DNA of 64,000 nt from Siphonodentalium dalli (lineage: Eukaryota > Mollusca > Scaphopoda > Gadilida > Siphonodentaliidae), in contig CP136061.1 of NCBI GenBank assembly GCA_032622095.1, forward strand, positions 4,520,505 through 4,584,504. Direction: 5' to 3'. The position numbers were made by a program, and so were the translations under genes. Under the pieces are notes generated by a model. That model saw only the letters and a program-made list of their open reading frames with translations, did not search any database and was not told where the DNA came from. Shown here in pieces: positions 4,262 to 64,000 of the stretch. How positions within the stretch are numbered: position 1 is the stretch's first letter; every line of letters starts with the position of its first letter.

Positions 4262-5605
4262 TAGTCCAGGATATATTGGTCGACCTCTGCACCCCCCCAG
4301 GACTTAACTTCACCCAACTAATTTTCTTCCTTAAGGTCTCCTCTAATTTTTTTCACTTGTTAACATTTTTTTTAAATGCACCAGGTCTCTTTGATCGCCG
4401 TTATAGTAAAGATGATGTCACATGCCGTCTTGTTTTCCGCTCGATTCGTTATGCTAATATACAACCCTTACAAATTAGCCAAAAATCGGACACCATAATC
4501 CAATATGGCGGCCAAGATGGCCGCCGAAATGTGAAAATATGCTATTTTTCTGACATGTTACCACCTTTCGACTGTCTCTGTTGGAAAATGTTAGAATGTT
4601 TGCGTCATGTTATACATTTATCATATAGAGGCGTCATTGGCGAACACATGGGGACCATAATATGCATTCACTGCTGGATATTTTTGTCCGATATCACGTT
4701 TTCCCAAATGCCGGTATCATAGGTCAAAGCCGAATCTCCGTTAATAACGCGATGTTATGTTTCGAATCAATGAATGTCATTGCTATTATAACAACACCCA
4801 TGCATATATATGTGCAGGAGATACTCAAGCTAGGATCCTCTTATACCTAAGTTGAGGAATATTTACCCAAATCCAAGATGACGGCCAAAATGGCCACCAT
4901 AAATAAAAAATCGCCGAAAATCGCCGATTTTAACATCAGTGAACATTTATTGTCATGAAAACTCCACACCTGCTTACTATTGTGAGTTGGGAACACTTAG
5001 GCGAAGAACTTTGCTTGTACCATATCCAAATAAAAGTCCCCCAAATCCAAAATGGCGCCCACAATGGCGGACATATTTTGAAAAATCACCGAAATTCCCT
5101 CATATTCACATCATTGGGCATTATTGTCGAGACAACTCCACCCATGCTTACAATTGAGTTGGAAATACTGAGGTGAGGTAATTACATCACATTTCATGCA
5201 AGAAATTGTTTTCCAAATCGAAGATGGCGGCCAAAATGGCGACCGAAATTTGAAAACAAGTCTACATTCCTTTACTTTCTTACGATGGGCGTTATTGTTT
5301 CGCGATTTCTATCCACCATTACATGTTGATATGGAATAGTAACATGAAGTATTCATTCATTCGGGTTTGGCAATTGATACTCACAGCCAAGATCGCTGCT
5401 AAATTGGCGTCTAGAAATTGAAAAGAAATCGATAATTTCACATATTAATTTCAACTTTTTGTCATAATATCGGTATGTATCCTCGTATCCTTCTGGAAAG
5501 ATGAAAAAACACCATTAATATCGCGATGTGGCATTTCGAAATCCAGTCTCCACTTAGCGCCGATAATGGCCGTAAGCGTAGGTGCGCCGAATAGTTATAT
5601 CAGAA
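4262..5605 (+). repeat. Left inverted-repeat arm with ATGGCGGCC sub-repeats
   Basis: The arm contains roughly 170-bp spaced copies of a motif of the type caaaatggcggccaa...atggccgcc (near 4503, 4875, 5050, 5222 and 5390), each followed by a short A-rich stretch. The longest open frame (4255-4722, 155 codons) lacks family features, and its reverse-complement partner in the other arm is broken up, so I do not call it a gene. The right arm contains an extra ~60-bp segment around 9030-9090 that is missing here. Confidence 0.7.
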
Positions 5606-20880: not shown

Positions 20881-21852
20881 CGAAATAAGTGTTTCCTGTT
20901 TAGTTAACATATATCGAACAAGAACACCGGGATACGGCGTGGTATGGCCCTAGAAGACCAATGGTGCCTAAGAAGGCTTACAATTCTACAGAGGGGATAA
21001 GAACATTTCTGTATTGCTCACATATGATAATATAAGTTTTAAGTTGACCCCCAGCTGTCCCATGACACTCATCGGGTCAATTTGAATCAATGTGAATCAA
21101 TGTTGCGGATGGCACATAGTAACATTTGTAAATAAATAGATCATTGCGCCATCCGCATCTAATTCAATAATGTATTATCGAGTAAGATGCGTGTTGTGTT
21201 CTATTTATGTTGTATTTGTTTTAAGGTCACTCTCACAGGTCAAAGACATGAGATGAAATGCTCTTCACTTTATTGCTATACATGTACGATGTGTTCCATC
21301 GTTTTAATTATATTCAACGTGGGGGAATAACTTCCGGTATAGACGTAAACAATCGATGCACATCGCTCTCCGAAATTTTCGAAAATAGTGTCTGTTCCCG
21401 GGTGTCTACCAGCCTGAATTGTCCAGGACCATCAATTTACTTATTCTAGCATGGATTGGGAATATTGTTTATCAGTTTTCGTGTGTGGTTTTTCGAGATC
21501 GGTATGTGACTTTTGAAATTTAATACTCTACCATGTCAACCTCGAACCCTCTAAGTGCACAATTCAGCCCAAAAACAGTGATTTTGAACACAAGTCCTCG
21601 AAGTCGAAAATGAAGTCCAGCGCCCAATTTAGGATGAATCGGATCCAATAATTCCTGTGTTTCTATTCAACTAATTAATTACAGTGTCATAAAGCGTATT
21701 CACTCATTATGTCGTGCAGCACAACTCACCACAACGGTACTCGTGACGTAGTGACGACTTACTATGCTTCGCCGTGAGAAAAAGTATATTGTCCAGTGAC
21801 AACATAATACATTATGCTCAGTATATCACAACAACAACTTTAATTAATCGAT
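20881..21852. other. Unique sequence and probable 5' region of the retrotransposon
   Basis: Contains a diverged piece of the 9450 hairpin family near 20930. The last few hundred bases probably form the 5' untranslated region of the non-LTR element that starts coding at 21853; its exact 5' end cannot be seen. No gene is recognised. Confidence 0.4.
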
Positions 21853-23474
21853 ATGGCGACAAGCAATACTTCGACTGATACCGACAAACGGAGCCTACAC
21901 GATTGTCTGTCAGATTGGTATGACAGTGTTGAGTCATTCCAGTACACTCGGCAACAGGATGACAGCCTCAAAATATATGACAATCTCAAACCAGTTCTCG
22001 CATTCATAAGCTCAACTACGTACGATATATTCACGGCAACAATAATTGAATTCGTCGGAAATCAGGACAAATTATTAGAAACACTAAGGGAGAATATATT
22101 CACTCACGCCAAGTCAAAGCAATATTTCCCATATGAGCAATCGTCTTCGATGAAACAACGAGTTGTCCGAAATCAATCTGGAAACCATGTGATTGATCGA
22201 AATAACAGAAACAAGCGAATGTCTAATGACATTTATAATATAATGAAGTTCATGGTAGATGAAGACAGTGACTCCATAATCGATGTTATTAGCAAAGGTA
22301 GCCGAAGCAAAGTGTTGGTCGACAGTCAATAGCCGGAAATGTAACCATTCTAGATGAAGATGACACCTGTACATCCAGTATCCACAATTCATTAGTGAAA
22401 ATTCAACGCGACATTTCATGCATGAAAACAGAAAACGAAATTTTCCACAAAGACATCAATCAACGAGTTCCCAAATTAGATTCATCAATTGCTAGCCTGG
22501 AGTCGCGATTCAGTAAAATCGAGGAGAAATTACAAATAGTAAACGACGTCGAGAAGGCTAAAACAGACATAACGACGATAAACAAAAAAATAAAAGAACT
22601 GGACGAACAAATTGAATCAGATACACTGACCATCGAGCGAATACAAGATGACAAATATACGGGTGTAAATAAACTAAAGGGTGACATAATCCAAATAAAG
22701 TCTGATATTGGCGAAATAGTAAGCGGTCTTGGTGAGTTCCATAAAAAACAGAAAAGTCTGGAAGGTCAAGTTGCTACACTGAAAGATTTAGTGAATAAGA
22801 AAAACATTCAACCGACTCATGCATGCGACAACATGGTTAATGAAACAATTAAACAAAACGTTACTATAATGAAAGATGAATTCAGAAGCTTCACTGCAGC
22901 GACAACCAACAGTTTGCAACAGTTTGTTGAAGTGGTCGACAGATCAATGGGTGAGATGGTAAAAACACAACGTGACATGGCTAAATTAATGGAGATGGCA
23001 ATGAACTACAGTTGCGACGATAATGTTTCACACTCAGCACACAGTGAACGAGAAGACATAAACAGTGAACGTGAAGACATAAACAGTGAACGAGGAGACA
23101 TAAACAATATATCTGTTGAATCAGAAGTTGCACCCGAATACCCGAATCACAGTTATAAACAGGCACCACCTAAACAGGAAGTTCACAGAAACTATGACCG
23201 TCAGTCCCAAAGTGATTCCTATTTTAACAGAATGGATGGACCAGTCAAAACATCACAAGTATATCTCGCCGGTTTTGACGATTCCGTAACAGTGTTCGAT
23301 ATCAAGTCACACCTTCTCCATTACAAAATTCGGTTCACAGTCATCAGAATGTTAAGAGGTAACGCAGCTCGAATCAACATTTGTGACAATGATATCGACA
23401 TAGTCCTCGGTCCGAAATTCTGGCCAGTTGGTGCAACTTGTAGGATGTGGGTCCGCAAAGAACCAGAATTCTGA
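21853..23474 (+). pseudogene. LINE ORF1, coiled-coil RNA-binding protein, frameshifted
   Basis: ORF1 proteins bind the element's RNA as a ribonucleoprotein. The frame starts at ATG 21853 and is open to 22332. A second frame, open from 22302, continues to 23474, so there is one frameshift inside 22302-22332. The product would be about 540 residues. After the break there is a long heptad-rich region (about 22395-22800) consistent with a coiled coil. This is followed by three 7-residue SEREDIN-type repeats (23042-23108) and a C-terminal ~70-residue RRM-like domain (about 23260-23474; YLAGFDDSVTVFDIKSHLL region, with a WP near the end). That C-terminal domain type is common in animal LINE ORF1 proteins. 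ORF2 follows 80 bp downstream. Confidence 0.75.
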
Positions 23475-23553
23475 AATAATTATGTTCGAATATCGACTAT
23501 CATATACCATTCTTTAATGTAATGATTCCTGATTCTTTTCTTCTTTTCTAGCG

Positions 23554-24927
23554 ATGTCTAATGTGCGCCATCTATGTATATCATTATTGTTTGTATTCAT
23601 ATTCGATTACCGTACACGAAATCAATACCATACCAGCTTATCGTATCCCACCAAGCTTAAATATATGGAGAACATGACATTAAATTTCCATACCTGGAAT
23701 TGTACGGGAATTATGTCATCAGGTGCATATATCACAGAACTAATGAGAAATGGTCATTATGACATTATGGGTCTAAGTGAGCATTGGTTATACCAAACCA
23801 ATGTATATTTTCTCGGAATGCTGGGGTCCAATAATGAATATCATGCTGTCTGCGATTATAGCCAACAAGTTCCCATCCATACCATAAAGCCAGGTAGACC
23901 CAAGGGCGGTGTGGCACTAATGTGGAACAACAGGCTGTCACACTGTATATGTCCGCTTGACATAGCAGATGATCGCATCATCGGGATTCAATTAAAGCTG
24001 CCAGGTGGGAGCTATTTGTATATCTTCCAAGTTTACTTACCATCCACGAATTATCCCGCTGAAGAATATATAGCATATATAAATACGCTTAGAGATATAT
24101 GCGATATATATAAAATACACGGTAACCTCATCATAATGGGCGATCTAAATGGTAATTTCGATAAATCAGATAAGCGAAACTCAGCATTCATTAAATTTGT
24201 TAAAGCCCTTGAATTGAAATCAGCCAATTATGAGATATCGCCTCGAGCTACTTGTTTACCATTTGGCCAGAGAGGCAAAAATAACGGCACAATAAACGAC
24301 CATATATTGATACCTGATATATTCATACATTTTGTACGCAGTATTGATGTAATGGACGATAACACTATAGATGTGTCAAATCATCGTCCAATATCCGCAA
24401 ATATTTCTTTGCCCGTAGATGATCGCACCATCGGAGGGCTAGATGCTAATGCTGATGGTGGGATCGACTGGAAGCGAGTGAGATCTCACCCAGAAATAAT
24501 CGAAGAGTATCAGAGATATCTTGATACTGAAATTATCAAAGTAAAAAACCGAGACCCCAATTTGTATCGAATTGACGCAGTATGTAGATATGCAGAAATC
24601 GTACAAGCAATTGCAAACGCATCGGTTGCGTGTTTTCCTCGTAAACGTTTCAAACGAAATCTTAAAACCTTCTGGAATGATGAGTTAAAAGCGTTACACG
24701 AAAAAATGCGTGCACATCGGAGAAAATGGATAGAGTCAGGAAGACCCAGAGAACAAAACGAACTCGATTTCGGAACTTATGTTGAGTATAAAGATGCCAA
24801 ATGCAACTTTCGTAGACTCTATAGGAGAGCATCTCATAAACACATGACAGAAGTGGTAAACGAAATAGATGAACGCGCTGAGGTCGACCAAGATTACCTT
24901 TTCCGCATGTTAAACGCGAAAAAAAAA
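23554..24927 (+). pseudogene. LINE ORF2, endonuclease part
   Basis: Exonuclease-endonuclease-phosphatase (EEP) fold that nicks target DNA for target-primed reverse transcription. The start could be ATG 23554 or the ATG at 23665, which directly precedes the conserved LNFHTWNCTG strand. Visible motifs in order are WNC (Asn), LSEHW (catalytic Glu), GGVALMWNN, GDLNGNF (Asp/Asn pair), INDHILIPD and SNHRPISAN. The last is normally SDH, so the Asp is Asn here. The frame leaves register at an A10 run (24919-24928). The shift there has the phase of one missing A, and the next frame continues smoothly into the RT part. The fragment read to its stop ends at 24996. Confidence 0.85.
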
Positions 24928-26017
24928 ACTTACACGCTAACAAAAATCCATTGTTCGTACACAATGGAACTGTTCTTCGTGAGGAATCTGAAATAACTGA
25001 AGGTTGGGCGACATACTTCGAAAATCTCTACTCGCCGTTATATCAACCGAGCTTTGACTCAGTACAATTTAATCGTGTTAATTCTTTTGTTGACCGAGAA
25101 GTGACCAATACAAGTGCAAGTAAAATTGACAAGAATATCATATTCCCGGTAACAGCCAGCGAACTGGCTGATATTTGTCGAAATCTTAATCGCGGTAAAG
25201 CAGCAGGGTGGGATCTCATCGCAAACGAACATATTATATATGGTGGTCCTGTGTTAATCCAGGCGGTGTCAGACCTACTTACTGATATTATTACAGAACA
25301 GACAGTCCCTGAACATATGAAGCGCGGCGTTATTATTACTTTATATAAAGGAGGGTCCAAACCAAAAACAGATTATGATAGTTATAGAGCAATCACATTG
25401 ATGCCTGTACTTTACAAAATACTTGAAAAAATAATCCAGACTCAATTAGAGCGATATACACCATACTTACTCGAAGTTAACCCATTGCAGCACGGATTCC
25501 AAAAAGGAATAAGTGCAAACATGACCTCCTACTTGATGAGAGAATGCATTTCATACGTATCCGAAAGCAAACAAAATTTTTATTCGTGTTTCCTCGATGT
25601 GTGGAAGGCCTTTGACACCGTCTGGGTAAATGGTCTATTGTACAAACTTTACGAACGCGGGGTACAGGGACATTTGTTCACATTATTATACAACCTTTTG
25701 ACAAATGTATCATGTTCAGTTCGATACCAACATACTTCATCTCAGTGGTTTAAAGTATTACAGGGAGCTAGACAAGGAAGTATATTATCGCCATTTTACT
25801 ATATGATTTACGTAGACGAATTGATCAATCAATTAGCCAGCTCAGGATATGGACTACAAATGTTGTGCATAAATTGCACCAGCCCTACACACGCGGACGA
25901 TATGGTGTTATTGTCCCTCAGTAAAAAGGGATTACAAAAACTTTGTGAAATATGCGTTTCTTACAGTAACACATGGAGGTACAGATATAACCCCAATAAA
26001 TGTTGTATAATTGTTTT
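24927..26017 (+). pseudogene. LINE ORF2, reverse transcriptase part
   Basis: Reverse transcriptase of the non-LTR type. Motifs in order: LNRGKAAGWD (motif 1 region), GVIITLYKGGSK (motif 2 region), DSYRAITLMPVLYKILEKII, FLDVWKAFDTVW (catalytic Asp), QGARQGSILSPF, and HADDMVLLS (the catalytic Asp-Asp pair with His replacing the usual Tyr/Phe). All three catalytic aspartates are present. The open frame is 24951-26066. The true continuation switches register at a TTTT run (26014-26017), again with the phase of one missing base. Confidence 0.88.
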
Positions 26018-27181
26018 AATGAGACAAAAGCGAATTATACTCGTCAAAATCGCACATGGAATCTAGGGGAATCGCAGATCAGGGAGGATACGCGAACAAC
26101 TCATCTGGGGATACCACTCGATAAATACGATTTCAACGGTGCCTTTGTTGAAAATATTTGCGAAAAAACTAGAAGTACATTTATGATGCTCACAAATGCT
26201 GGTATTCATCCGGGTGCTATAACTCCAAAGAGTTGTTCGATTATCTACTCGTCTGTGGTACTTCCGAGGGGATTGTACGGTTCTGAATTACTTTGGAATT
26301 TGTGCCAGAATAACCGTGATCGTCTAGAAAGAACACACCGATTTTGCGTTAAATTTTTCCAGGGTCTACATACACGCACAAAGACAGAAATAGCCCTTGG
26401 GTTAGTCGGTCTGCCTCCACTCATGTCTTTAATCGATAAACTCAAACTATCATTCTTTGGCTCGCTGTGTAATCTGTCGCAAAACAAAACTGTTAAATCT
26501 ATTTTCTTAACCCATTTGTATCAATATGTCGTGGGGTGCTCAGAGATAAGTGATAAAAATTTCATAGCTGACATGATTACAACACTCCAGAAATATAACA
26601 TGGTCGACTACCTGATAACTTTTATTGATTTACACAAATTCCCGAATAAACTAACATGGAAAAATATATTGAGAGACAAATGGAAAATCGGGTGTTCTGA
26701 AGAGTGGACAGCAATTATAAATGGCGACAATAGACTTGCTCGTTTCGCTGCCATACAACAAGAATTAACCATGTCTCATCTTTGGGGAAAATGTCGATGC
26801 TTCCCAAAATATAAATCATCGTACACGCTTGTTGCTCGCCTTATGGCTATGTTACCTGGTTAGAAACAGGTATGTCCTCTCTGCAGTCGCGAACACAGCG
26901 ACGTTGTTAAACATACCATATGTGAATGCACGTCAATAACATCGGAGAGGAACCTTGTGGAATTCGACATTTTGAACAACTTTGATATCGAATTATACCT
27001 AAAATTCGATAAACTGAGTCCAGAATCTAAAACTCGACTTTTTCTTTCTGGATTATCAGATTTTATGACGATTCCACTGGAATATACGGAAGACCCAATT
27101 AATTTTTTTGTTAAAAAGTCCGCTGATCTATGGAAACGCTATGTTGACTTAATAATATTATCTGAGAATGCAACGAATTAA
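26017..27181 (+). pseudogene. LINE ORF2, C-terminal region with Cys/His motif
   Basis: Continues the RT thumb and connection region (THLGIPLD, then LYGSELLWNLCQ and IALGLVGLPPL segments, a pattern typical of LINE ORF2 C-termini). The frame 26000-26863 ends at a TAG (26861-26863), but the same frame stays open beyond it to 27181. Immediately after the stop it encodes a CPLC...H...H..C.C zinc-knuckle-like motif (about 26874-26930), which ORF2 proteins normally carry. The TAG is therefore a nonsense mutation and not the natural end. No RNase H motifs are visible. Confidence 0.75.
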
Positions 27182-27690
27182 GCGACATTATCAGCTCCAG
27201 CACGTCAGTGAAGGTTGACATATTCAATATACAACTAAAGGAAATATACATGCATACATGTATTATAACAGCTATGTTCGGTGGGCGTTATTCGCAAATA
27301 CCACACACTTATGGCACCAAATGGTCGCAAAACATTGAGGTTGTTTTCGGCGATACGTTTACCCGATAATGCTTGGATTACATTTACATCGACAATCATT
27401 TTATGTATATGTGCATGTAGATCATGCATTATAGATTCGTGTAAGCTCACATGGTGCATACAATGTGTATGTAATCGATCATGACCGCGCCAATGTTCTA
27501 CTTGCATTGTATCCCTAACATACTTGTGTAAATTTCCGAATCTGATTATGTATGTCTTACATTTTGCTGCACTCCGATTGGAGATGTCATGAACTTATAT
27601 TGACATCTTGGCCTAATCTGTGCTAGACCGGAGTAGCATCCATGCATGGTGTGTAGTAATACTCGATAGTTGTGTGAGTGTATGTGGGCT
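27182..27690. other. Probable 3' region of the LINE
   Basis: No gene is seen. It lies between the ORF2 stop and a microsatellite. It may be the 3' untranslated region of the element, but no poly(A) or simple tail marks its end. Confidence 0.4.
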
Positions 27691-27696
27691 AAGGTG

Positions 27697-27786
27697 TGTG
27701 TGCGATATATATATATGTATATGTGTGTATATGTGTATGTATATGTATGCATGTATGTGTGTATATATATATGTATATGTATGTAC

Positions 27787-27841
<55 letters not shown>

Positions 27842-27870
27842 GGTATATGTATATGTATGTGGGGATATAT
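27697..27870. repeat. TATA/TATG microsatellite
   Basis: Alternating tatatgtatatgtgtat and a pure (TA)n core around 27796-27836. Open frames here are Tyr/Ile or Thr/His runs from the repeat. It is followed at 27886-27935 by agcgcctta...aaagcgctc, a word that recurs in dispersed repeats of many invertebrates (recalled and not proven here). Confidence 0.9.
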
Positions 27871-28169
27871 ATATAATAATAATGTATAGCATTTTTAAAG
27901 CGCCTTATCCCATGAGGCCCAAAGCGCTCAATGATACAACAAATGACCGAGCTCCAGCACATTTAAACACATATACGCATGTACACACAAACAATAACTA
28001 CAATGAAATAAATCAAACAATTCATATACAAATCAGGATGAAGGCTGTGAGTATTGTATAAAACAATGCAGGAAATGTGTGCTCAGCTTTGGTCGTCGTC
28101 GTTGCCATAGTGAAGTTTAAACAGATACGTTTTGAGTTCTGTTTTGAAAGATTCCAAAGTAGCAAAATT

Positions 28170-28311
28170 CCTATATGTGTGTATATATGTGTGTTTGTAT
28201 ATGTATGAGTGTGTATGTATGTATGTATATATATATATATATAATATATGTATATATGTATATGTATATATACATATATATAGAGGGAGGGAGAGAGAGA
28301 GAGAGAGAGAT
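28170..28311. repeat. TATG/TA microsatellite and (GA)n tract
   Basis: tatgtgtg/tatg repeats, then (TA)n, then a short GA tract (gggagagagagagagagaga region, about 28284-28309). Low complexity only. Confidence 0.9.
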
Positions 28312-28778
28312 GTCAGGCACGCTTTGAAATAAGAATTGTTCGATTTACAATATTGCTATATTTTTATCATTTCATTGTGAATAAATAATATATGGCGCTA
28401 TGTCCTATGTGCTTATATTGCCATTTTTGTGTTGATATATTTGTTTTTGTGTGAATTAATTGTATATGTATCAATGATCTCCCATGAGGAGGAAATAAAG
28501 ATATATATATATATATATTATTAATTTAATGGAAGTTGATGTGGTATAACTGTACCACGTGTACCGTATTATTAACTTAGTATGAGTCCTGGGATATTTC
28601 AGAACTTAGAAATATGATTTTACTACTGGTACTTAGAGTAATTAAGTGCATTTAGGGATAGCCTATGATACGATTGGTAAGATTAGTTTATAGAATTGAT
28701 GTAAATCCATACGTCGGCGCCTGATAACTTATTCATAGCCTCTCGTTGCAAATAGAGATATAGTGGTGTTCTGGATAC
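28312..28778. other. Unique sequence left of the Bcl-2 element
   Basis: AT-rich, with one more short (TA)n near 28500. No gene is recognised. Confidence 0.4.
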
Positions 28779-28784
28779 GCAAGG

Positions 28785-29252
28785 TGATGATGATAAGGCC
28801 CCCAGTTGGTGGTATTTCAGGAACGATAACTCTATCCGAAGTACACGACCTATATTCTCAGCAGTACTCCTGTTGGTGTTAGTCTAGACAGTTTGACCTA
28901 TATTCTCCGCCCACGCATTGCATCATGGTGTATGTGTATACCGGTTGGGCATGTCCAAAAAAATTCAAAAACTTCAAAAATTTCAAAAATTTCACAAATT
29001 TCAAAAAAATTCAAAAATTAAACAAAATTCAGGATTTAGTCATAAATGTGACCCGCCATATCAAATCCAGTCGGAAGTCGGGATTTTTTTATCCTGTGCC
29101 AATGCATTCTCTTATATATGCGAGTCGACAAGCCGCCGGCGGCGGCGGCGGCCGTAATGCGCATGTCAACGCCGCTGCAACCGGCGGCGGCGGCGGCAGC
29201 AACTAAATAATCCTATGGCATGCAAAGAAATTGGCGGCGGCGGCGGTGTTTG

Positions 29253-29304
<52 letters not shown>

Positions 29305-29387
29305 ATTGATATTAATATGTTTGCCAATAATTTACACATCCATGAACCTATCTGAAAACATTATGGTTCATTGTCAACATTTTTGAC
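28785..29387 (+). repeat. Left terminal inverted repeat
   Basis: About 600 bp. In order it holds a terminal ~180-bp conserved block, the ttcaaaaattt minisatellite (28955-29030), a block with gtgacccgccatatcaaatc, GGC triplet runs (29138-29248), a (TA)n tract, and a final block ending ttgtcaacatttttgac. Each is mirrored on the right. Short A-rich or GC-triplet open frames here are not genes. Confidence 0.85.
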
Positions 29388-29538
29388 GAGTAATGGTCAA
29401 TATTTAGACATGCGTATGCCGCTCTCACCCCCCTCCCCTCCGCGCGCGCGCCAATTTCACCAAAGATCAATGTCGGCACATTTAACATCTAAAATTAGAA
29501 ATGAAACGTGTCGGAACACGTTAATATCATGCATTTTG

Positions 29539-29566
29539 ATTGGTTAGCTGGCTCAACATAATAAAG
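29539..29566 (+). promoter_or_regulatory. Possible promoter elements upstream of the Bcl-2-like gene
   Basis: An inverted CCAAT box (ATTGG, 29539-29543) and an A/T-rich ATAATAAAG (29558-29566) lie 15-45 bp before the ATG, in the part of the loop that is not inverted repeat. The A/T-rich box is too close to the ATG for a normal TATA box unless the leader is almost absent. Suggestive only. Confidence 0.3.
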
Positions 29567-29582
29567 GGACTGCTGATATTTT

Positions 29583-30116
29583 ATGTCTGACGTAGAAGGG
29601 AACAAAAATAATAATCGATACACAGCTCAAGAAATTGAACAGTATGGAAGTTGGCACAGTTACGAAATATTTGATGAAAGTTATGTCAGACATATCATTC
29701 TGAGAAACGGCTTTCATTACCCAGACACTAATAACTTTTATTTAGAGTTAGATGAAATACGTGACTGTACCAGAAGAATACTTCAAAAGCTGGAAAATTA
29801 TAACATGTGGCTGTTAAATGAGCTGACAGGGAAATTGGACAGTTACGATAGGGATCATTTTCCCTATATATTTAGTGACTTGTTGGACAATATATTTCGG
29901 GAAGATGGCCCCTACACATGGGAGAGATTAATGGCTGCATTCCTGTTCACAGGAACAATGTGTTTAAAAGCATACAAAGACAACGACTTCTCATTGGTCA
30001 GCGAAATTATGCAATGGGCACACACTATCGTGACATTATACACTGACCAATGGGTCGAACGGGAAGGCAGTTGGGATAATTTCTTCCAGGAATGTCTAAA
30101 TATTGACAATTACTAG
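29583..30116 (+). CDS. Bcl-2 family-like protein, intronless, 177 aa
   Basis: Probably an apoptosis regulator with the Bcl-2 helical-bundle fold. BH1-like residues 105-127 include FREDGPYTWERLMAAFLF followed by TGTMC. BH2-like residues 157-170 are QWVEREGSWDNFFQ, with the Trp and Gly-x-Trp-Asp pattern of the family. Spacing between the two fits the family. A BH4-like amphipathic segment (about 31-46) and a weaker BH3-like helix (about 58-75) are inferred from position. The canonical NWGR of BH1 reads TWER, so the usual Gly is lost. There is no C-terminal membrane anchor, and the protein is shorter than most cellular members. Animal Bcl-2 genes usually have an intron in BH2; none is present here. 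This suggests a retrocopy or virus-derived gene. Whether it promotes or blocks death cannot be read from the sequence. Confidence 0.75.
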   Translation: MSDVEGNKNNNRYTAQEIEQYGSWHSYEIFDESYVRHIILRNGFHYPDTNNFYLELDEIRDCTRRILQKLENYNMWLLNELTGKLDSYDRDHFPYIFSDLLDNIFREDGPYTWERLMAAFLFTGTMCLKAYKDNDFSLVSEIMQWAHTIVTLYTDQWVEREGSWDNFFQECLNIDNY

Positions 30117-31140
30117 TCAAAAATGTTGACAATGAACCATAATGTTTTCAGATCGGTTCATGGATGTGTAAATTATTGGCAAACATATTAATATCAATTG
30201 TGTATATATATATATATATCCGCAAACGCCGCCGCCGCCGCCGCCGCCAATTTCTTTGCATGCCATAGGATTATGTAGTTGCCGCCGCCGCCGCCGCCGG
30301 CGGCCGCGGCGTTGACATGCGCATTACGGCCGCCGCCGCCGCCGGCGGCTGGTCAACTCGCATATATAAGAGAATGCACTGGCACAGAATAAAAAAATCC
30401 CGACTTCCAACTGGATTTGATATGGCGGGTCACATTTATGACTAAATCCTAAATTTTGTTTAAGTTTTTTGAAATTTGTGAAATTTGTGAAGTTTTTGAA
30501 GTTTTTGAAATTTTTGAAGTTTTTGAAATTTTTGAATGTTTTTTGAAGTTTTTGAAATACTTGAACTTTTTGAACTTTTTGAACTTTTTGAACTTTTTGA
30601 ACTTTTTGAACTTTTTGAACTTTTTGAACTTTTTGAAATTTTTTGGACATGCCCAACCGGTATACACATAGACCATGCTGCAATGCGTGGGCGGAGAATA
30701 TAGGTCAAACTGTCAAACCGACTAACACTATGTCGACTCGAAAAAATATAAGAGAATGCACTGGCACAGGATAAAAAAATCCCGACTTCCGACTGGATTT
30801 GATATGGCGGGTCACATTTATGACTAAATCCTGAATTTTGTTTAAGTTTTTTGAAATTTGTGAAATTTGTGAAATTTTTGAAGTTTTTGAAATTTTTGAA
30901 GTTTTTGAAATTTTTGAAATTTTTTGAAATTTTTGAAATTTTTGAAATTTTTGAACTTTTTGAATTTTTTTGGACATGCCCAACCGGTATACACATATAC
31001 CATGATGCAATGCGTGGGCGGAGAATACAGGTCAAACTGTCTAGACTAACACCAACAGGAGTACTGCTGAGAATATAGGTCGTGTACTTCGGATAGAGTT
31101 ATCGTTCCTGAAATACCACCAACTGGGGGCCTTATCATCA
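30117..31140 (-). repeat. Right inverted-repeat arm with internal duplication
   Basis: It starts one base after the stop codon of the Bcl-2-like gene with tcaaaaatgttgacaatg, the mirror of the left arm's inner end. The segment from the conserved agagaatgcactggcacag word to the ggtcaaactgtc word occurs twice in tandem (about 30370-30713 and 30750-31035), making this arm ~420 bp longer than the left one. It includes CCG runs (30224-30352) and ttttgaa minisatellites (30461-30640 and 30845-30968). The Lys/Phe-rich and Ser/Lys-rich open frames are repeat translations. Confidence 0.85.
30388..30393 (+). terminator. Candidate poly(A) signal for the Bcl-2-like gene
   Basis: AATAAA about 270 bp after the stop codon. 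The duplicated copy of this segment reads GATAAA at the same place (about 30768), so the consensus hexamer exists only in the copy nearest the gene. Confidence 0.4.
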
Positions 31141-31146
31141 GCAAGG

Positions 31147-33047
31147 AGTGTAAACTAGAAAGTAATATGTTAATACAATAGGACAAGTTACTGACTTATG
31201 CAGAAATATATTGGATCAATTCCTCTGGTAGCAGAACAATTACCGGAGCGTTTGACCGACGGCTTGATATTCCGAAGGTCCGTTAGTCGGAAGGTTCAAT
31301 TGTTGGGTTGAAAATATACACTGCGAATACAGTCAAAATGATTCCATAGTCCGATATTCTGAGAGTGATTTGAATGAAGTGAAATAAATCAATGAAATAA
31401 CTAGAAATAACGAGACAAAGGGTCACATGCAAATGTGAACACTACCATGGCAACGTATATAAATGTGAATACTACCATGTCGACGCATATAAATGTGAAC
31501 ACTACCACGTCGACGCATATAAACATTTATCACATAAGTAGCCCCTACATCCGGCCTAATATTATTTAGTAAGATACACGGGTATTATCGGCACACACAT
31601 TGATATAAGAGCTTAGCGCAATGATAACGATGTCAATGCCGGAAGTTTAGTATTATGTTAATTAGAATATAATTATGATATTCAATTCGTGTTGGGCTAT
31701 TTGGTGTTGGCTGTGAGATAAGCAAGGTAAAACACTTTTGTTAGCACGAAAAGACACATTTATAATGCAACTATATTATGTCTTGAAGGTGTATTTACTT
31801 CCTCTTTGGTTGTGATAAGGGTATCCAACCGTTTCAAGATCGTTTTCCTCCCTTGGTAAAATGTGATTATGTGGTAACGTGGATCTCAAATGCACTCAGT
31901 TCATAAATTGTGTATATAATTGCGACTAATCAGACATCCTGTATATATCACATACATGTAGCTAAGTCGAATGGCACACATATTTCTGTCAGTTTTATTT
32001 TTGACAATGTTCGATGAAGACATATGTTAACAACCTGGACTATTTATTTGTAATTGGAGTGGTTGCCTTGATATTTTGGTTTTATGGTGGCGGAATTAAT
32101 GAATTTGTTTAATTGTTATCACCTGAATAGCACTGTTAGTATATATTGTTGTCTGGTCAATTGCTATCAAAAGGTAACTTGTCTGACATACGATATATGA
32201 AGAGGGAATTTGCTATATCATGCGAGGTAGCTATGTCTCATATTAATCTTTCAAACTGAGTTCTCCCTTTTGAATGACATAAACTAATGTATGTATGCGC
32301 ACGAGCTCTGATGCGTATTATATATACACACTAACATGTGTATACGCTGCCTGGGTTCAGAAAGATTTATATATTAAGTCAGGCGGCATTTAAAATTATG
32401 TGAATCAGCGAACAGATGACATGACCTGCTGCCAAGTTACATGTATCAAAGTATATCGGTACATAACATAGGCACTAACTATATATAAACATACATGTAT
32501 AGTATAAAACAACACATTTTTGAATCGAAATTCTTACCCACCTCTTGCCTATGTTTTAAAACATGTAGCACGCGTAGATGGATTACACACCAGGGAGTAT
32601 TTGCGTTCGATATGGCGAAACTCTCTCAGAAAGTATAAAATGGAACAAAATACTCCTTACTGGAAATATTAATTGTTTTTGAATCATCATTTAAACACAT
32701 AATCTTGACTAAGTTGTGTGGGTATAAATTTGAATTAAATATATGGTATTTTCTAAGGTGTTACTAGTTAAATGTCTTTGTGTTTTGTCCCTAAATAGTT
32801 GCACTCAACTTGTGTTACATGATGCGTATCTATATTCTTCATAATCACATACCTACCACAATGTTACTAATTTGACCAATCTTATATATGAAACTGGGAG
32901 AGCCCCGAGTTCTGCACGGCGTATCCATTGAATAGCATCCATACTCATGGACATCTTCTGTAAGAGCCCAAAATCTAACAAAATTACTGTATTGTCTGTG
33001 TTGATATCAATTCAGTTAAATGTATTTGTCACATACTTATGGTTAAG
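31147..33047. other. Unique non-coding region with a three-copy 30-bp repeat
   Basis: About 1.9 kb without a recognisable gene. A small tandem repeat aaatgtgaacactaccatgt (30-bp period, three copies) occupies 31430-31525. The rest is AT-rich unique sequence. Confidence 0.5.
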
Positions 33048-33360
33048 GGATCGCGGTGTGGCTCGGTCGGTAAGGGGTACATATCCAAAGCTATTCGCCC
33101 TTCAGTGATGGCGATACGGGTTCAAATCCACATGTTTTCATATTGGACTTTGTAACTCGAAATCGTTATATGGTAGAGTTGCCATTTACTCGCCGATTGC
33201 CGGTGGTTTGCCGCCCATGGTCGAATAGTTAATGAGCTATTGAAATCACTCTTATATTAGCCGTAAGTGTGTGGATATCCTCCACGACTAAAACTGGCAA
33301 TGTCGTGATATGGCCTTAGTTGATGAAAGCGACATTAAACCTCAATCAATCAATCGATCA
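33048..33360 (+). mobile_element. tRNA-derived SINE
   Basis: A tRNA-like head has an A box (tggctcggtcggtaagg, about 33060-33076) and a B box (ggttcaaatcc, about 33119-33129) at normal spacing. A body with gccggtggtttgccgcccat follows, and the 3' end is gcgacattaaacctcaatcaatcaatc, a simple ATCA tail. The head does not fold into a clean tRNA, so this is not a tRNA gene. The body and tail resemble the widespread mollusc SINEs; the exact family name is an inference. Confidence 0.75.
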
Positions 33361-33984
33361 ACTGAGGCTTAATTGTACAAATACCGGTATTGTGAGAAAA
33401 ATTTATTTAGTTATTTTTATTATTGGCTTTTTGAGAAATTGTCGTAATAAGGTATCGGTATTTGATGTGATAGCACATATACTTTAATTCGTCAACAACA
33501 TTTAGTTAGATATTCAAATTCGAAAAATGGGCATAGCTCCATCATAAAAGGTCGGACTGAACCAAAATTCGAATTTGACCTGTATTTTCATGTTATTAAT
33601 CCACATAATCATTTTAATTTGATAGGTATCCATGTAATCATAACATATATTATCATCCGGATAAAAAGTTGATAAGAAACTCTGCCAGAAATGGTCGGAT
33701 CGAATCAAAATTCAATGGTCGGATCGAATCCAAATTCAAACTTGGTCGGAACTTTCTCATATGAAGGCCAAATACCATGCTTCATCAAATTCTGTCAAAT
33801 ACTATAATTCATATTGACATCCGGACAACAATCTAATCGGCAAATTATAAGCCAAACAAGAGACATAACTCCGTCAGTACTGGTCAGAGCGCACCTTAAT
33901 TAAGACGGACGGATACCGTTCAATTCTATAGTCTCCCGAATTTATTTTTCTGTCAACAATTTTAACAATCAGCATCAGATCCAT
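33361..33984. other. Unique sequence with a short degenerate repeat
   Basis: Contains degenerate copies of ggtcggatcgaatcaaaatt around 33540-33750. No gene is visible. Confidence 0.4.
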
Positions 33985-34770
33985 TCAACACAGCCACTGC
34001 CACCATATTACATTTATTACATTCGTGTTTCACTCGTATCAACACAGCCACTGACACCATATTACATTTATTACACTCGTGTTTCACTCGTATCAACACG
34101 GGCCACTGACACCATATTACATTTATTACACTCGTGTTTCACTCGTATCAACACAGCCACTGACACCATATTACATTTATCACATTCGTGTTTTCACTCG
34201 TATCAACACAGCCACTGACACCATATTACATTTATTACATTCGTGTTTCAACGTATCAACACAGCCACTGACACCATATTACATTTATTACATTCGTGTT
34301 TCACTCGTATCAACCCAGCCACTGACACCATATTACATTTATTATATTCGTGTTTCACTCGTATCAACACAGCCACTGACACCATATTACATTTATTACA
34401 TTCGTGTGTCACTCGTATCAACACAGCCACTGACACCATATTACATTTATTACATTCGTGTTTCACTCGTATCAACACAGCCACTGACACCATATTACAT
34501 TTATTACACTCGTGTTTCACTCGTATCAACACAGCCACTGACACCATATTACATTTATTACATTCGTGTGTCACTCGTATCAACACAGCCACTGACACCA
34601 TATTACATTTATTACATTCGTGTTTCACTCGTATCAACACAGCCACTGACACCATATTACATTTATTACATTCGTGTTTCACTCGTATCAACACAGCCAC
34701 TGACACCATATTACATTTATTACACTCTTGTTTCACTCGTATCAACACCGGCCACGGGGCTCTTCAACAC
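33985..34770 (+). repeat. 54-bp minisatellite (about 14 copies)
   Basis: The unit is marked by cagccactgacaccatatta and cattcgtgtttcactcgtat, with a period of 54 bp (18 codons), so several frames stay open for 160-230 codons on both strands. The units are highly similar. The array lies within about 50 bp of the SRCR exon at 34822, in the intron downstream of it. I treat the open frames as repeat artefacts. Confidence 0.92.
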
Positions 34771-34821
34771 GATCCAATAACACATACAAGCTTCTATCCA
34801 ACTGTTACATATTGTACTCAC

Positions 34822-35121
34822 CCTGGCAGTCAACTCCAGCGTCGTGCGAGTGGTAACAGATGAATGTCCGCGAATGGGAGCAATCCCATATTGCAGCCTC
34901 CTCCCCGGTACACGCGACGTCTCTCATCCAGATAGGTCCCGTACCTTGTCCGTAGGTTACTCGCCCTCTGGCGATGCCTCCTCGAAATCCCAGCATCTTG
35001 CACACGACAGATGCATCAGAGTCATCCCATCCCACGTCGCACACTGTTCCCCATTGGCCGTTCATATAGACCTCAACTCGACCAGATGTTATTATTGATC
35101 CACTAACTATGCGAATGTTTT
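34822..35121 (-). CDS. SRCR-domain exon (downstream of the two)
   Basis: A single exon of 300 bp encodes one complete scavenger receptor cysteine-rich domain, an extracellular ligand-binding module. An acceptor (ttgcag) precedes 35121 and a donor (G|GTGAGT) follows 34822 on the minus strand. Both borders are phase 1, so the exon can be duplicated or skipped without changing frame. Motifs: SGRVEVY, GQWGTVCD, VGWDDSDASVVCKMLGF, GPIWMRDVACTG and DAGVDC. It has six cysteines in total. Expected to be part of a secreted or membrane multi-SRCR protein together with the exon at 38416-38712. The remaining exons lie outside the window or are not recognisable. Confidence 0.9.
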
Positions 35122-35199
35122 CTGCAACTGATAAAACACATCAATTGGTCGATTTCACTCGATGTGTCGCAGTTACGACCTCATGTGAACCGATGTGCA

Positions 35200-35515
35200 C
35201 CATTACTGTCTGCTTAATATGTTAAATTCAATGTTGATGCCCGGTGTATATCGATGTATATAGTTACTGTCTGCATAATATATTAAATTCAATGTTGATA
35301 CCCGGTGTATATAGAAGTACATTCTTGCAGTACTGTCTGCATAATATAATAAATGCAACGTTGATGCCCGGCGTATATCGATGTACATCCTTGCAGTACT
35401 GTATGCATAATATATTAAATTCAATGATGGTGCCCGGTGTATACCGTTGTGCAGGCTTACTGTCTGCATAATACAATAAATTCAATGTTATGTTTGTGCC
35501 CGGTGAATATCGTTG
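35200..35515. repeat. ~60-65-bp minisatellite in the SRCR intron
   Basis: Five copies of a unit containing tactgtctgcataatatatt and gatgcccggtgtatatcgat. Open frames on both strands come from the repeat. Confidence 0.85.
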
Positions 35516-38275: not shown

Positions 38276-38415
38276 ATCTTAGTGATTGTCGTCCTGGCAA
38301 CGTTTATAACGTCATCATCAATATCGTCGTAATTTGTTTTCTCATTTTGTAGATTAGGTACACATGATGTGTGTTCCTTTATACATAAGTATGATGTATA
38401 CAATCATTAACTTAC

Positions 38416-38712
38416 CCGGACATTCCACCCCAGCATCCTGGGTGTGTTGACAGCTATTTGTTCCCCATCCGTTGTGATTGCAATCCCACACTGAAGTCTC
38501 ATTTCCAGCGCATGTGACTTCGTCCAGCCAGATTGGTCCCGTCCCTTGTCCATAGCTTCTGGCAATACCGCCTTGGAAACCAAGAGTCCTGCACACGATA
38601 GCTGCATCAGTATTATCCCATCCGTTGTTGCACACCGTTCCCCATTGGTCGTCCCTATACACTTCAACTCGACCAGATGCTGTACTATTTCCACCAACTA
38701 ACCGAATATCGC
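38416..38712 (-). CDS. SRCR-domain exon (upstream of the two)
   Basis: A 297-bp exon encoding a full SRCR domain of about 99 residues. An acceptor (attttag) precedes 38712 and a donor (G|GTAAGT) follows 38416 on the minus strand. Both borders are phase 1, matching the exon at 34822. Motifs: DIRLVGGN, SGRVEVY, DQWGTVCNNGWD, AAIVCRTLGF, GPIWLDEVTCAGNE, VWDCNHNGWG and DAGVEC. It has six cysteines. It is closely similar to the other exon, so the pair looks like a domain duplication separated by a 3.3-kb intron. It is transcribed leftward, so this exon comes first. Confidence 0.92.
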
Positions 38713-38901
38713 CTAAAATGGAACACACATGAAGTCGTTTAGTATCAAGCAAGTATGTGTATGTATATTTATTTTGTTGCTATTATTTTTGTAATGTGTT
38801 GGCCGTGCGCTCTCATGTGTACACATATGTTGTAGATATTGCTAGACATCTACTTCTATTTATAACACGCCAATCAGCCCTCGGCCAATTGAAGAAATCT
38901 A

Positions 38902-54594: not shown

Positions 54595-55001
54595 ATCCGG
54601 TCCGAATCGACATCTCACGACATACCATCCGGTTACAACTACAGTGTACTGTGCAAAATAAATATTCGGGTCAATCTCTAGATACATGGTCATATTGGCA
54701 TAGCTTCCCGGCTTATTTTAGTGATTTCCCAAAACTCATAATAAATTCTGTTGTTGCTGCAATTCCGCTTAAATTTCCTCGCAAATCGCCAGAATCGTGC
54801 CGATCAGCACTTATAAAGTTAGTAGCCCGACACGGCGTTTACAAAACTCCGCGTGAGCTTGGACATCCATATCAAAGGAAATCATCCCACACGAAACCAA
54901 CAACAAGTGACTAAGCAAATTAATTAAACTTCATGGAATCACCGCCACCCGAATAAGTGGAATATTCAAACCAAGATAGTTTATTTAGTCGCAGTTTTAC
55001 C
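54595..55001 (+). other. Leader / possible partial LTR of the Gypsy element
   Basis: About 400 bp between the satellite and gag. It contains AATAAA at about 54657, which could be an LTR polyadenylation signal. An 87-codon frame (54651-54914) starts with GTG and has no recognisable domain; I leave it uncalled. Confidence 0.4.
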
Positions 55002-56138
55002 ATGGAACGAGAACGACACCTCCACGCGGCCAGTAATGCAAACATGCACGACATTAATATACCAAATCCCTCCTTTCAAATGCCGAGCGCACAAGACACA
55101 CAGAATACCCTCATATCTCAATTAACGCGAGAAATAGGTCAATTTAACGTGACAATGCGTGAGACTTCTGCCGCCACACATTCACAGGCCACAGTATCTG
55201 CCATTATAGGTATGAACGCAATGGTTACATCATTTGATGGCAAACCATCAGAATTTTTAAATTGGATGCACGAAATTGAAAAATATTCTTCGACACTTGG
55301 GGCAGAGGATGAAACAATAATTAAAATAGCCGCCCAGACAAGTCGTTCATCTGTTTCCGAATTCGTGCAACGATACATCAATGACAATACGGTTAACGGC
55401 ACACTAACGGTCACATGGCCTGATTTGAAAGCGCAGTTGCGATCCCGTTTCAGCGCGATAAGTGACGCACCACAGGCTCTGGCCATGTTGCGATCATTAA
55501 AACAAACACACCAGGAAACACTACCTATGTTTGCAATGAGAATTAGATCACTCGCAAACACTGCTTTTATTGATGAAATAAATACACAGGCGGTACAAAC
55601 ACAATTGGTAACATTTTTTGCGGATGGCATACGCGATGACCATATCAAATACACTTTAATTAAAGATGACCCAACGTCGCTCGACCGTGCCAACGAGATA
55701 GCAATGAAACAAATGAACATTAAACAGAGGTTCAAACTTCGCTATGGTGATAGAACATCGAGATCAAATGAACAACACCAAATACACGACTCCTTCCCAC
55801 AACCCATGGAGGTTGACCATTTTAGGCGACGTCCCATACTATGGAAACCGCGCAATAATATATCCGATAGCTCTGCAACTAACAAACCAGTGCACCGTGC
55901 AAATCATCTCTCAAACCCACCATTCCGAATGCCACCAAGATTTCAAAACACTAACTTTAATAGACAAAACAATGACATCCGCCAGGATCGGATAAACAAT
56001 ATAGACTACAACTCAAACCGGCCAAACTTCCCAAATCAAAGGAAACGCCAGTTCTGCACACTATGTAAGATGAACAACCACGATATACAAAATTGCCGAA
56101 GACGGATCGCCAATAACAAACAATATTTAAACAGGTAA
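55002..56138 (+). CDS. gag: Gag polyprotein (378 aa)
   Basis: Structural protein that assembles the particle and packages the RNA. I chose ATG 55002 (accATGgaa, good context); the same frame is open upstream to 54957 but without another ATG. The N-terminal 70 residues are polar. The middle is a Ty3-type capsid region: the FDGKPSEFLNWMHEIEKY block begins about residue 77, followed by WPDLKAQLRSRF and FADGIRDDHIKYTL. The C-terminus is basic and Asn/Arg-rich and ends with one CCHC zinc knuckle (C-x2-C-x4-H-x4-C, residues 352-365, CTLCKMNNHDIQNC) for RNA binding. The stop lies within a -1 frameshift signal, so part of the product should continue into Pol. Confidence 0.9.
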   Translation: MERERHLHAASNANMHDINIPNPSFQMPSAQDTQNTLISQLTREIGQFNVTMRETSAATHSQATVSAIIGMNAMVTSFDGKPSEFLNWMHEIEKYSSTLGAEDETIIKIAAQTSRSSVSEFVQRYINDNTVNGTLTVTWPDLKAQLRSRFSAISDAPQALAMLRSLKQTHQETLPMFAMRIRSLANTAFIDEINTQAVQTQLVTFFADGIRDDHIKYTLIKDDPTSLDRANEIAMKQMNIKQRFKLRYGDRTSRSNEQHQIHDSFPQPMEVDHFRRRPILWKPRNNISDSSATNKPVHRANHLSNPPFRMPPRFQNTNFNRQNNDIRQDRINNIDYNSNRPNFPNQRKRQFCTLCKMNNHDIQNCRRRIANNKQYLNR

Positions 56139-56170
56139 GAATGTCTTTGAAGAAGCCGCAAGGACATTCT
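56126..56170 (+). promoter_or_regulatory. Programmed -1 ribosomal frameshift signal, gag to pol
   Basis: TTTAAAC at 56126-56132 is a canonical slippery heptamer and sits in the right register (T TTA AAC in the gag frame), two codons before the gag stop. After a 5-nt spacer a 12-bp stem follows, 56138-56149 with 56159-56170 (one G-U pair), with a 9-nt loop. Shifting back by one base leads directly into the pol frame, which is open across this point. All three standard parts are present at standard spacing. Confidence 0.85.
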
Positions 56171-63464: not shown

Positions 63465-64000
63465 ATGAGGACTTCTTCAGTGATATTTCTTATTGCGATC
63501 ACAATATGGTGTGTACAAAGCATATTAACGAGACAGAATATATTTTTCAACCATCAAAACCAAATTGCCTTGTCTAGCGAAGACTGGAAATTGAGTTTCG
63601 TTACCGACTTGCAACCGTTCGAAACATTCCTAACCCAAACATCTCACCTTATTCATTCAGCAAAGAAAGACCTAGAAAATATTTGTTCAAAGGAACATTA
63701 TTCCACATATCATAACAATCTTTGGAATGCCCCAGCCGCGACTAATAAGGCTCATAAGTTTAACAAAAATTACATATTCACCTTGTCAGACATGATTACC
63801 GAAATCACAGCTATTCAATCCCAACTCCTAACAATCACATATAATTTCGCGTCATATCGAACTATCCACCGTGCAAATCGTGTTAAAAGATCACTCCTAC
63901 CTTTCGTGTCCACAATTCAAAAATGGCTATTCGGCGTTCCGTCAGAATCAGACCTTGAACTAGTTCAAACAAACATCCGAACATTATATCATAATCAAAA
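63465..64000 (+). CDS. env: Envelope-like glycoprotein, 5' part (178 codons in window)
   Basis: Open from ATG 63465 to the window edge; an in-frame TAG lies just upstream. Residues 1-19 form a signal peptide (basic start, then a hydrophobic core). An ectodomain segment with few cysteines follows. At 139-142 is a furin-type site, RVKR. It is followed immediately by a hydrophobic fusion-peptide-like stretch with KWLFG (about 143-157) and then a heptad-like helix. This order is that of the baculovirus F-like envelope proteins of errantiviruses and related invertebrate Gypsy elements: a class I fusion protein that would allow cell-to-cell spread. The transmembrane anchor must lie beyond the window. 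No break is seen in the visible part. Confidence 0.85.
   Translation, partial: MRTSSVIFLIAITIWCVQSILTRQNIFFNHQNQIALSSEDWKLSFVTDLQPFETFLTQTSHLIHSAKKDLENICSKEHYSTYHNNLWNAPAATNKAHKFNKNYIFTLSDMITEITAIQSQLLTITYNFASYRTIHRANRVKRSLLPFVSTIQKWLFGVPSESDLELVQTNIRTLYHNQ

Follow-up and report, generated by a model that had tools for sequence, protein, structure and literature searches.

A foldback-type mobile element family bearing Bcl-2-like genes in the genome of the scaphopod Siphonodentalium dalli

The stretch of 64,000 nucleotides analysed here, referred to as the window, covers positions 4,520,505 to 4,584,504 of the forward strand of contig CP136061.1 in the Siphonodentalium dalli assembly GCA_032622095.1. 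At window positions 28785-31140 lies an element of 2,356 base pairs (bp) with long inverted arms, a short direct repeat on both outer sides and an open reading frame (ORF) for a Bcl-2-like protein of 177 amino acids (aa). Related copies elsewhere in the genome place it in a mobile family of palindromic elements. The features of the window copy, in window coordinates, are the following.

28779..28784, no strand: left copy of the target-site duplication, GCAAGG; a flush 6-bp repeat, 6 bp also being found at 10 other independent insertions
28785..29412, plus strand: left inverted arm, tipped by (TGA)3TAAGG, in which 9-bp repeats of the AAAAATTTC type occur together with GGC-rich blocks and an AT run
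29312..29411, minus strand: probable 3'-end remnant of a second, inverted Bcl-2 gene, recognised from the arm alignment, the family frame and the two-gene relatives, its ends set by arithmetic
29412..29582, plus strand: 5' region of the Bcl-2 gene, common to family copies from about 29440
29583..30116, plus strand: intronless Bcl-2-like ORF of 177 aa (family form, 203 aa)
30091..31140, minus strand: right inverted arm, inside which ~382 bp are duplicated in tandem and whose tip reads (TGA)2TAAGG on the minus strand
30388..30393, plus strand: sole AATAAA from the stop codon up to 31200, a possible poly-A signal
31141..31146, no strand: right copy of the target-site duplication, GCAAGG; a flush 6-bp repeat

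The two arms are mutual reverse complements, with 555 of 572 ungapped aligned positions equal (97.0%). The greater length of the right arm is due mainly to its tandem duplication (30364-30745, followed by the second unit from 30746 onward), and the left tip holds one TGA more than the right tip (TGATGATGATAAGG vs TGATGATAAGG). GCAAGG abuts both ends of the element directly; at random window positions, the chance of a flush 6-bp match is 0.00054 when one register is considered and 0.00198 when four are.

A preliminary description of this locus had the frame filling the loop between the arms. The frame is confirmed at 29583-30116, but its final 25 nucleotides already belong to the right arm, their mirror image being retained at 29387-29411 in the left one; measured on the 203-aa frame of the family, this remnant extends to about 100 nucleotides. 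Both the family and the left arm of the window copy read TCG at a codon where the right arm reads TAG (stop at 30114-30116), and the window protein therefore ends after 177 rather than 203 aa. The region in front of the gene (29412..29582) displays an observed-to-expected CpG ratio of 1.31, with CCAAT/ATTGG motifs at 29451 and 29539, and may act as the promoter.

The assignment of the product to the Bcl-2 family, proposed from the BH1 and BH2 motifs in the preliminary description, is borne out by several comparisons. Against the Pfam Bcl-2 model PF00452, the 177-aa ORF gives an expectation value (E) of 1.7e-13 (51.4 bits, cut-off 31.4) and the 203-aa form an E of 3.4e-14 (53.6 bits). BCL-XL chains match the 177-aa product at E 1.4e-8 over an alignment spanning BH1 and BH2, and in a fold comparison the predicted structure adopts the Bcl-2 fold; the single-sequence model was used here, an alignment-based second model being inferior. 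A BH4-like stretch, SYVRHIILRNGFHYP, was judged by eye only, and no hydrophobic tail was seen in the 203-aa form, again by eye.

Two motifs of the protein deserve closer attention. BH1 reads YTWERL vs the usual NWGRI, so that Arg is retained while Asn and Gly are lost, the latter being replaced by Glu. Trichoplax Bcl-2L4 likewise lacks the Gly of NWGR, and the report on it doubts that its BH3 groove works (PMC8998228). The same source gives a conserved exon boundary at the BH2 GGW tryptophan in mouse, sponge and placozoan genes. In the element, BH2 is uninterrupted (WVEREGSW-DNFF): the ORF runs on through GSW-DNFF and its BCL-XL match continues past the tryptophan, and hence the usual exon boundary is absent, as the preliminary description had noted. 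This missing intron points to a processed or viral-type gene and is no argument against membership in the Bcl-2 family.

Searched with the protein, the host assembly, whose nine contigs total 2.23 Gb, gave at least 153 matches. Of the 307 first-look candidates, 150 were scored, so that all counts from this search are lower bounds. We based our tallies on the first 99 matches, each covering at least 146 of the 177 residues. They fall into 72 loci with all 9 contigs represented, and the matched stretch is free of stops in 90 of them. Head-to-head pairs number 24 in this set, with a gap of 314-321 bp in 17. Around two of the matches, frames stay open for 1,754 and 1,781 aa; these proved to be runs of N and were discarded as genes.

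Twenty loci, picked by hand and partly for showing pairs, were fetched, and ten of them display a simple head-to-head pair of full-length matches. The fuller copies are palindromes of 5.2-6.7 kb with two head-to-head Bcl-2 genes and, in each arm, one ORF that is C2H2-like and polyglutamine-bearing. Long inverted arms make up most of the element, as in foldback elements. In seven of ten delimited elements the arms are 96.6-99.6% alike, with the similarity reaching the centre or ending within 170 bp of it; for the L023 copy, an alignment of 2,898 columns puts the likeness of the two arms at 99.76%. Each arm of L018 and L023 encodes one outward 203-aa Bcl-2 ORF and one ORF of ~130 aa, which starts with the C2H2-like MKYQCEECLSVYAWQDSLKRHIKVKH and continues with a glutamine- and histidine-rich run. 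The label C2H2-like refers only to the spacing C-x2-C-x12-H-x4-H, since the Pfam score is under the cut-off (E 0.21).

Beyond these two kinds of ORF, L018 and L023 contain none above 155 aa. No ORF exceeds 203 aa in L018 and L023 or 191 aa in the window element, leaving no frame of PolB or integrase size; nor was any transposase-sized ORF present in the copies read (introns not modelled), in line with the earlier proposal of an element without its own transposase. The proposal that Bcl-2 is the sole cargo holds for the window copy, from which the C2H2-like ORFs are absent, but not for the fuller copies. Judged from its sequence, the window copy is a shortened one-gene member of the family with an early stop, and L012 is a comparable one-gene element of 2,168 bp. 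Separately, L011:1380-9071 and L021 hold head-to-tail tandem arrays of ~3-kb half-elements, every unit of which ends in an element tip.

The evidence for transposition comes from a scan of the window region and the 20 fetched loci for inverted TGATGAT(A/G) tips 1.2-9 kb apart, with flush repeats of 5-7 bp sought at their outer sides. Tip pairs occur at 14 of the 21 loci (52 pairs altogether), and 12 of these 14 have a flush direct repeat, which is always 6 bp long. The repeats come from 11 independent insertions, each with a sequence of its own: GCAAGG, AAGCAC, GATTAT, CTTGTC, ATTGAT, GACAAT, GCGATA, TCTAAA, CGAAGA, AACTAT and GCTGTT. The count is 11 rather than 12 because the window and L020 share GCAAGG, L020 being a segmental duplicate of the same insertion. 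L020 was rejected as a second insertion because its flanks agree with those in the window throughout the 9.9 kb that was fetched. This duplication, which corresponds to window 24763-35315 and lies ~54 kb upstream, includes long interspersed nuclear element (LINE) sequence, the Bcl-2 element and a 54-bp minisatellite.

Joining the flanks of the L026 element without the element itself yields a sequence that matches window repeats 5063-5315 and 8331-8114 across the junction at ~70% identity. These matches are related empty sites, too diverged to place the exact base. The other ten joined flank pairs gave no junction-spanning match among the window and fetched locus sequences.

An immobile origin, as an assembly artefact or an inverted segmental duplication, could draw on L020, which duplicates the window insertion with the same GCAAGG flanks. 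This reading is refuted by the 11 independent insertions with differing 6-bp duplications, and the window arms have moreover diverged by substitutions, indels and the tandem duplication; we consider it practically excluded. The Bcl-2 genes are carried by a mobile palindromic family, and the mobility and 6-bp duplication first suggested for the window copy extend to copies across the genome that share both the duplication length and the gene.

The tips of the family are not confined to Bcl-2 interiors. The first 140 bases of the L019 element gave 1,074 first-look candidates, and all 40 that were scored match at 95-100%. Two inverted pairs with the same tips, C9:179682895-179695613 and C4:18950697-18964216 (L033, L034 and L036), lie 12.7 and 13.5 kb apart. 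Their pieces are 99% alike, the sides of the C9 element mirror each other at 99.9% over 3,022 bp, and the pieces read contain no ORF above 110 aa. An element on C1 has the same interior as this pair; its size is estimated at ~14.6 kb, the right tip being absent from the matches listed, and near its end it holds a 233-aa ORF with no Pfam match above cut-off.

This repeated ORF (L035:694-1392, equal to C2:234250193-234250891) has at least 150 matches in the assembly (150 of 1,560 candidates scored), many of them in inverted pairs spaced, as judged by eye, at about 9-15 kb, at 1.6-3 kb or at 515 bp. It lies within TGATGATA-tipped ends at all three places compared (C1:106110703, C2:234246201-234268482 and C8:47117854-47124903). 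Since Bcl-2, mirror-sided and 233-aa interiors all occur under common tips, the tips appear to mobilise several palindromic interiors, of which Bcl-2 would be one.

The 6-bp duplications suggest an integrase-type enzyme, and mobilisation in trans by such an enzyme is the course we moderately favour. According to PMC10045372, duplications of 6 bp are usual for Polinton, IS3EU and GingerRoot; the ends of IS3EU are TA..TA, as are mostly those of GingerRoot, with TG..CA occurring there occasionally. A GingerRoot- or IS3EU-like DDE transposon could accordingly be the mobiliser of the Bcl-2 family, which combines TG..CA ends with 6 bp. The prevailing TA..TA ends of both groups do not fit, however, and we regard this candidate as possible but doubtful.

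A second candidate emerges from the host genome itself. At least 149 PolB matches occur there, 69 out of 1,596 candidates having been scored; their scores are near-equal, and the open frames that hold them measure about 952 or 1,312 aa. The 3.9 kb upstream of two copies agree at 96.9%, and these matches, including L037 and L038, point to Polinton-like elements. According to PMC8097293, vertebrate Mavericks that are intact show 6-bp duplications, their inverted ends measure 46-1,447 bp, and short tandem repeats form their tips. The Bcl-2 elements, with similar duplications, long inverted ends and tandem-repeat tips, might hence be satellites or deletion derivatives of a Polinton/Maverick or adintovirus, in which a viral accessory Bcl-2 gene sits between terminal repeats and is moved by a virus-like integrase. 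A Bcl2 entry of a Branchiostoma lancelet adintovirus is indeed among the BFVD matches.

At E 0.05 that match is not significant, and we claim no viral ancestry because the BFVD matches to viral Bcl-2 proteins all lie above E 0.03. The tip motifs are also unlike those given in PMC8097293, and the Bcl-2 elements read lack the PolB- and integrase-sized frames of such a parent. The 952-aa PolB family was rejected as a partner, its left boundary starting with AGAAGAATAG and not with TGATGATA (two copies compared, left ends only); the check covered this family only, the boundary of the 1,312-aa family sitting in local repeats that make it unreadable. Altogether, we consider descent from such an element unlikely.

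In IMG/VR, no stretch fits the patterns of the element protein and a second arm pattern gave no match. An exact 18-mer match to the tip (L001) was found there without further likeness to the arm, and we judged it to be chance in so big a collection. At L037:435-526, a 93-bp piece resembling the subterminal module of the Bcl-2 element adjoins the start of a PolB-bearing element, which for this reason seems to be inserted into a related repeat.

The whole of these features is likely best explained by a foldback family with a mobiliser acting in trans and a role for its Bcl-2 gene. The window element is one shortened copy of a large, apparently non-autonomous foldback family with 5'-TGATGAT(A/G) tips and a 6-bp target duplication. 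In one subfamily both arms bear an intronless Bcl-2 gene, the two genes standing head to head about a short centre. A DDE enzyme of the retroviral-integrase type would act in trans on the common tips, and arm likeness might be kept by gene conversion or by repeated inverted duplication (snap-back copying). The two Bcl-2 genes would be expressed outward from the centre, and their protein, with its altered NWGR and no evident anchor, may dampen the death of element-active cells and thereby favour transmission. The window copy would have arisen through loss of the left gene except its 3' end, loss of both C2H2-like ORFs and the change to TAG. The alternatives weighed in this work address the role and the mobiliser separately, and their probabilities therefore overlap.

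Several observations weigh against this explanation. L016 and L017 have both tips without any repeat of 5-7 bp, and L011, L013, L014, L021, L024, L027 and L028 offer no testable tip pair. The inverted match stops short of the centre in three of the ten delimited elements (L012, L019 and L026), and, as no transposase with the element tips was found, mobilisation in trans is an inference. The N-terminal ~32 residues of the protein lie in two different frames, depending on the copy, and an anti-death action is uncertain because of the Gly to Glu change in BH1 and the lack of an evident membrane anchor. Further points concern selection. Compared with L018 at the DNA level, 21 of the 34 ORF copies reach an identity of 99.5% or more and the others fall within 97.5-99.3%, and owing to this near-identity the open frames mainly reflect recent spread and not selection. 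The ratio of nonsynonymous to synonymous substitution rates (dN/dS) for L030 vs L018 is 1.2 with 22 differences. A low dN/dS for a deep comparison depends on one pair, that with L031; this relative is broken, has an amino-acid identity of 48% and shows no flanks of an element within the 1.5 kb that was read.

This single deep comparison gives a dN/dS of 0.25 over 144 codons (bootstrap 0.10-0.43), and the window copy vs L018 gives 0.33 with 10 differences. L031 displays similarity in the ORF only, so the constraint acted somewhere between L031 and the elements, not necessarily inside the elements. Selection on the protein within the lineage is, on these values, somewhat more probable than its absence. 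The gene could nonetheless be a neutral passenger, a processed Bcl-2 gene that was captured once, is open only because the burst is young, and has no part in the spread. The near-identity of the copies agrees with this, as do the stop-truncated window copy itself and the lack of Bcl-2 in the read pieces of other same-tip elements. The deep dN/dS, on the other hand, argues for constraint, and at 24 head-to-head pairs the gene is present in both arms. We give a neutral passenger serious weight, though somewhat short of an even chance.

An anti-death benefit to the element is a tentative proposal that we find doubtful. In its fullest form, which we hold to be rather improbable, the two outward Bcl-2 genes of each copy would keep germ-line or stem cells with transposition damage from dying and thereby increase transmission of the element, with cargo being exchanged among elements that share only their tips and the 233-aa gene riding between the same tips as a second cargo. 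Transposition breaks DNA and may kill host cells, and an element with a cell-death regulator allows for testing whether transposons manipulate apoptosis, as viruses do. In addition, the family provides a natural system for studying how palindromes of 5-7 kb survive and spread in a genome.

Other features of the window lie around the element. A non-LTR (long terminal repeat) retrotransposon with endonuclease and reverse transcriptase domains occupies 21844-26860, and a Ty3/Gypsy element with gag and pol frames lies at 54957-60874 and 63465-63998. An ORF after the Ty3/Gypsy frames has, by eye, a furin-like RVKR site and no Pfam match; it could be envelope-like. The 54-bp minisatellite spans 33985-34748 with 14 copies at 96% and is open in several frames. 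Of 123 window frames of at least 70 aa that passed a complexity filter, 30 were scanned against Pfam. One SRCR domain scored above cut-off (E 1.1e-30) in an exon at 38357-38779 on the minus strand, the sole host-type gene piece among the scanned frames; weak sub-threshold matches were left unused. An Rfam scan at gathering thresholds gave no match.

Among known systems, Foldback (FB) and Galileo elements have long inverted arms with short tandem repeats and little between them, most copies being transposase-free, and make target duplications of 9 bp (FB) and 7 bp (Galileo). The Bcl-2 family shares the long arms, the internal short tandem repeats, the small amount of sequence between the arms and the lack of a transposase, none being seen in the copies read. 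It differs in its 6-bp duplication (12 of 14 testable loci and none of 7 bp; 9 bp was not sought there, but the flank letters of the window give 6) and in that the entire element is a palindrome, with both arms holding a Bcl-2 gene. Pack-type elements (Pack-MULE, Helitron) carry a host-like gene between non-autonomous ends, whereas here one gene is open at tens of loci and often doubled head to head.

Polinton/Maverick elements and adintoviruses resemble the Bcl-2 family in their 6-bp duplications, their tandem-repeat tips and inverted ends that are hundreds of bases long (PMC8097293), and a Bcl2 entry exists for the lancelet adintovirus. Polintons and Mavericks are 12.7-24.6 kb long, in contrast to palindromes of 5-7 kb, and the Bcl-2 copies read have no ORF of PolB, integrase or capsid size. 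The Polinton/Maverick end motifs, (AGT)2, (AG)3 or (AC)3A, do not occur at the TGATGAT(A/G) tips, whose trinucleotide form is similar only in kind. By its sequence features the Bcl-2 element is not a Polinton/Maverick member, but it could be moved by one. With GingerRoot it has in common the 6-bp duplication with TG..CA ends, whereas no transposase is seen in the Bcl-2 copies read and IS3EU ends are TA..TA (PMC10045372).

The preliminary description had further suggested a new type of cargo element. Mobile elements with a BCL2-like motif have already been reported, namely Burro, giant Gypsy LTR elements of planarians (PMC6431247). Burro is an LTR retrotransposon with the motif within a large polyprotein, as against a stand-alone gene in a DNA element here. 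For a foldback DNA element with Bcl-2, we recognised no account among the papers listed on adintovirus/Polinton or on foldback and DNA transposons together with Bcl-2. Foldback, Polinton and gene-capturing elements are all known already; what is unusual here is a Bcl-2 cargo that is open, often duplicated and widespread.

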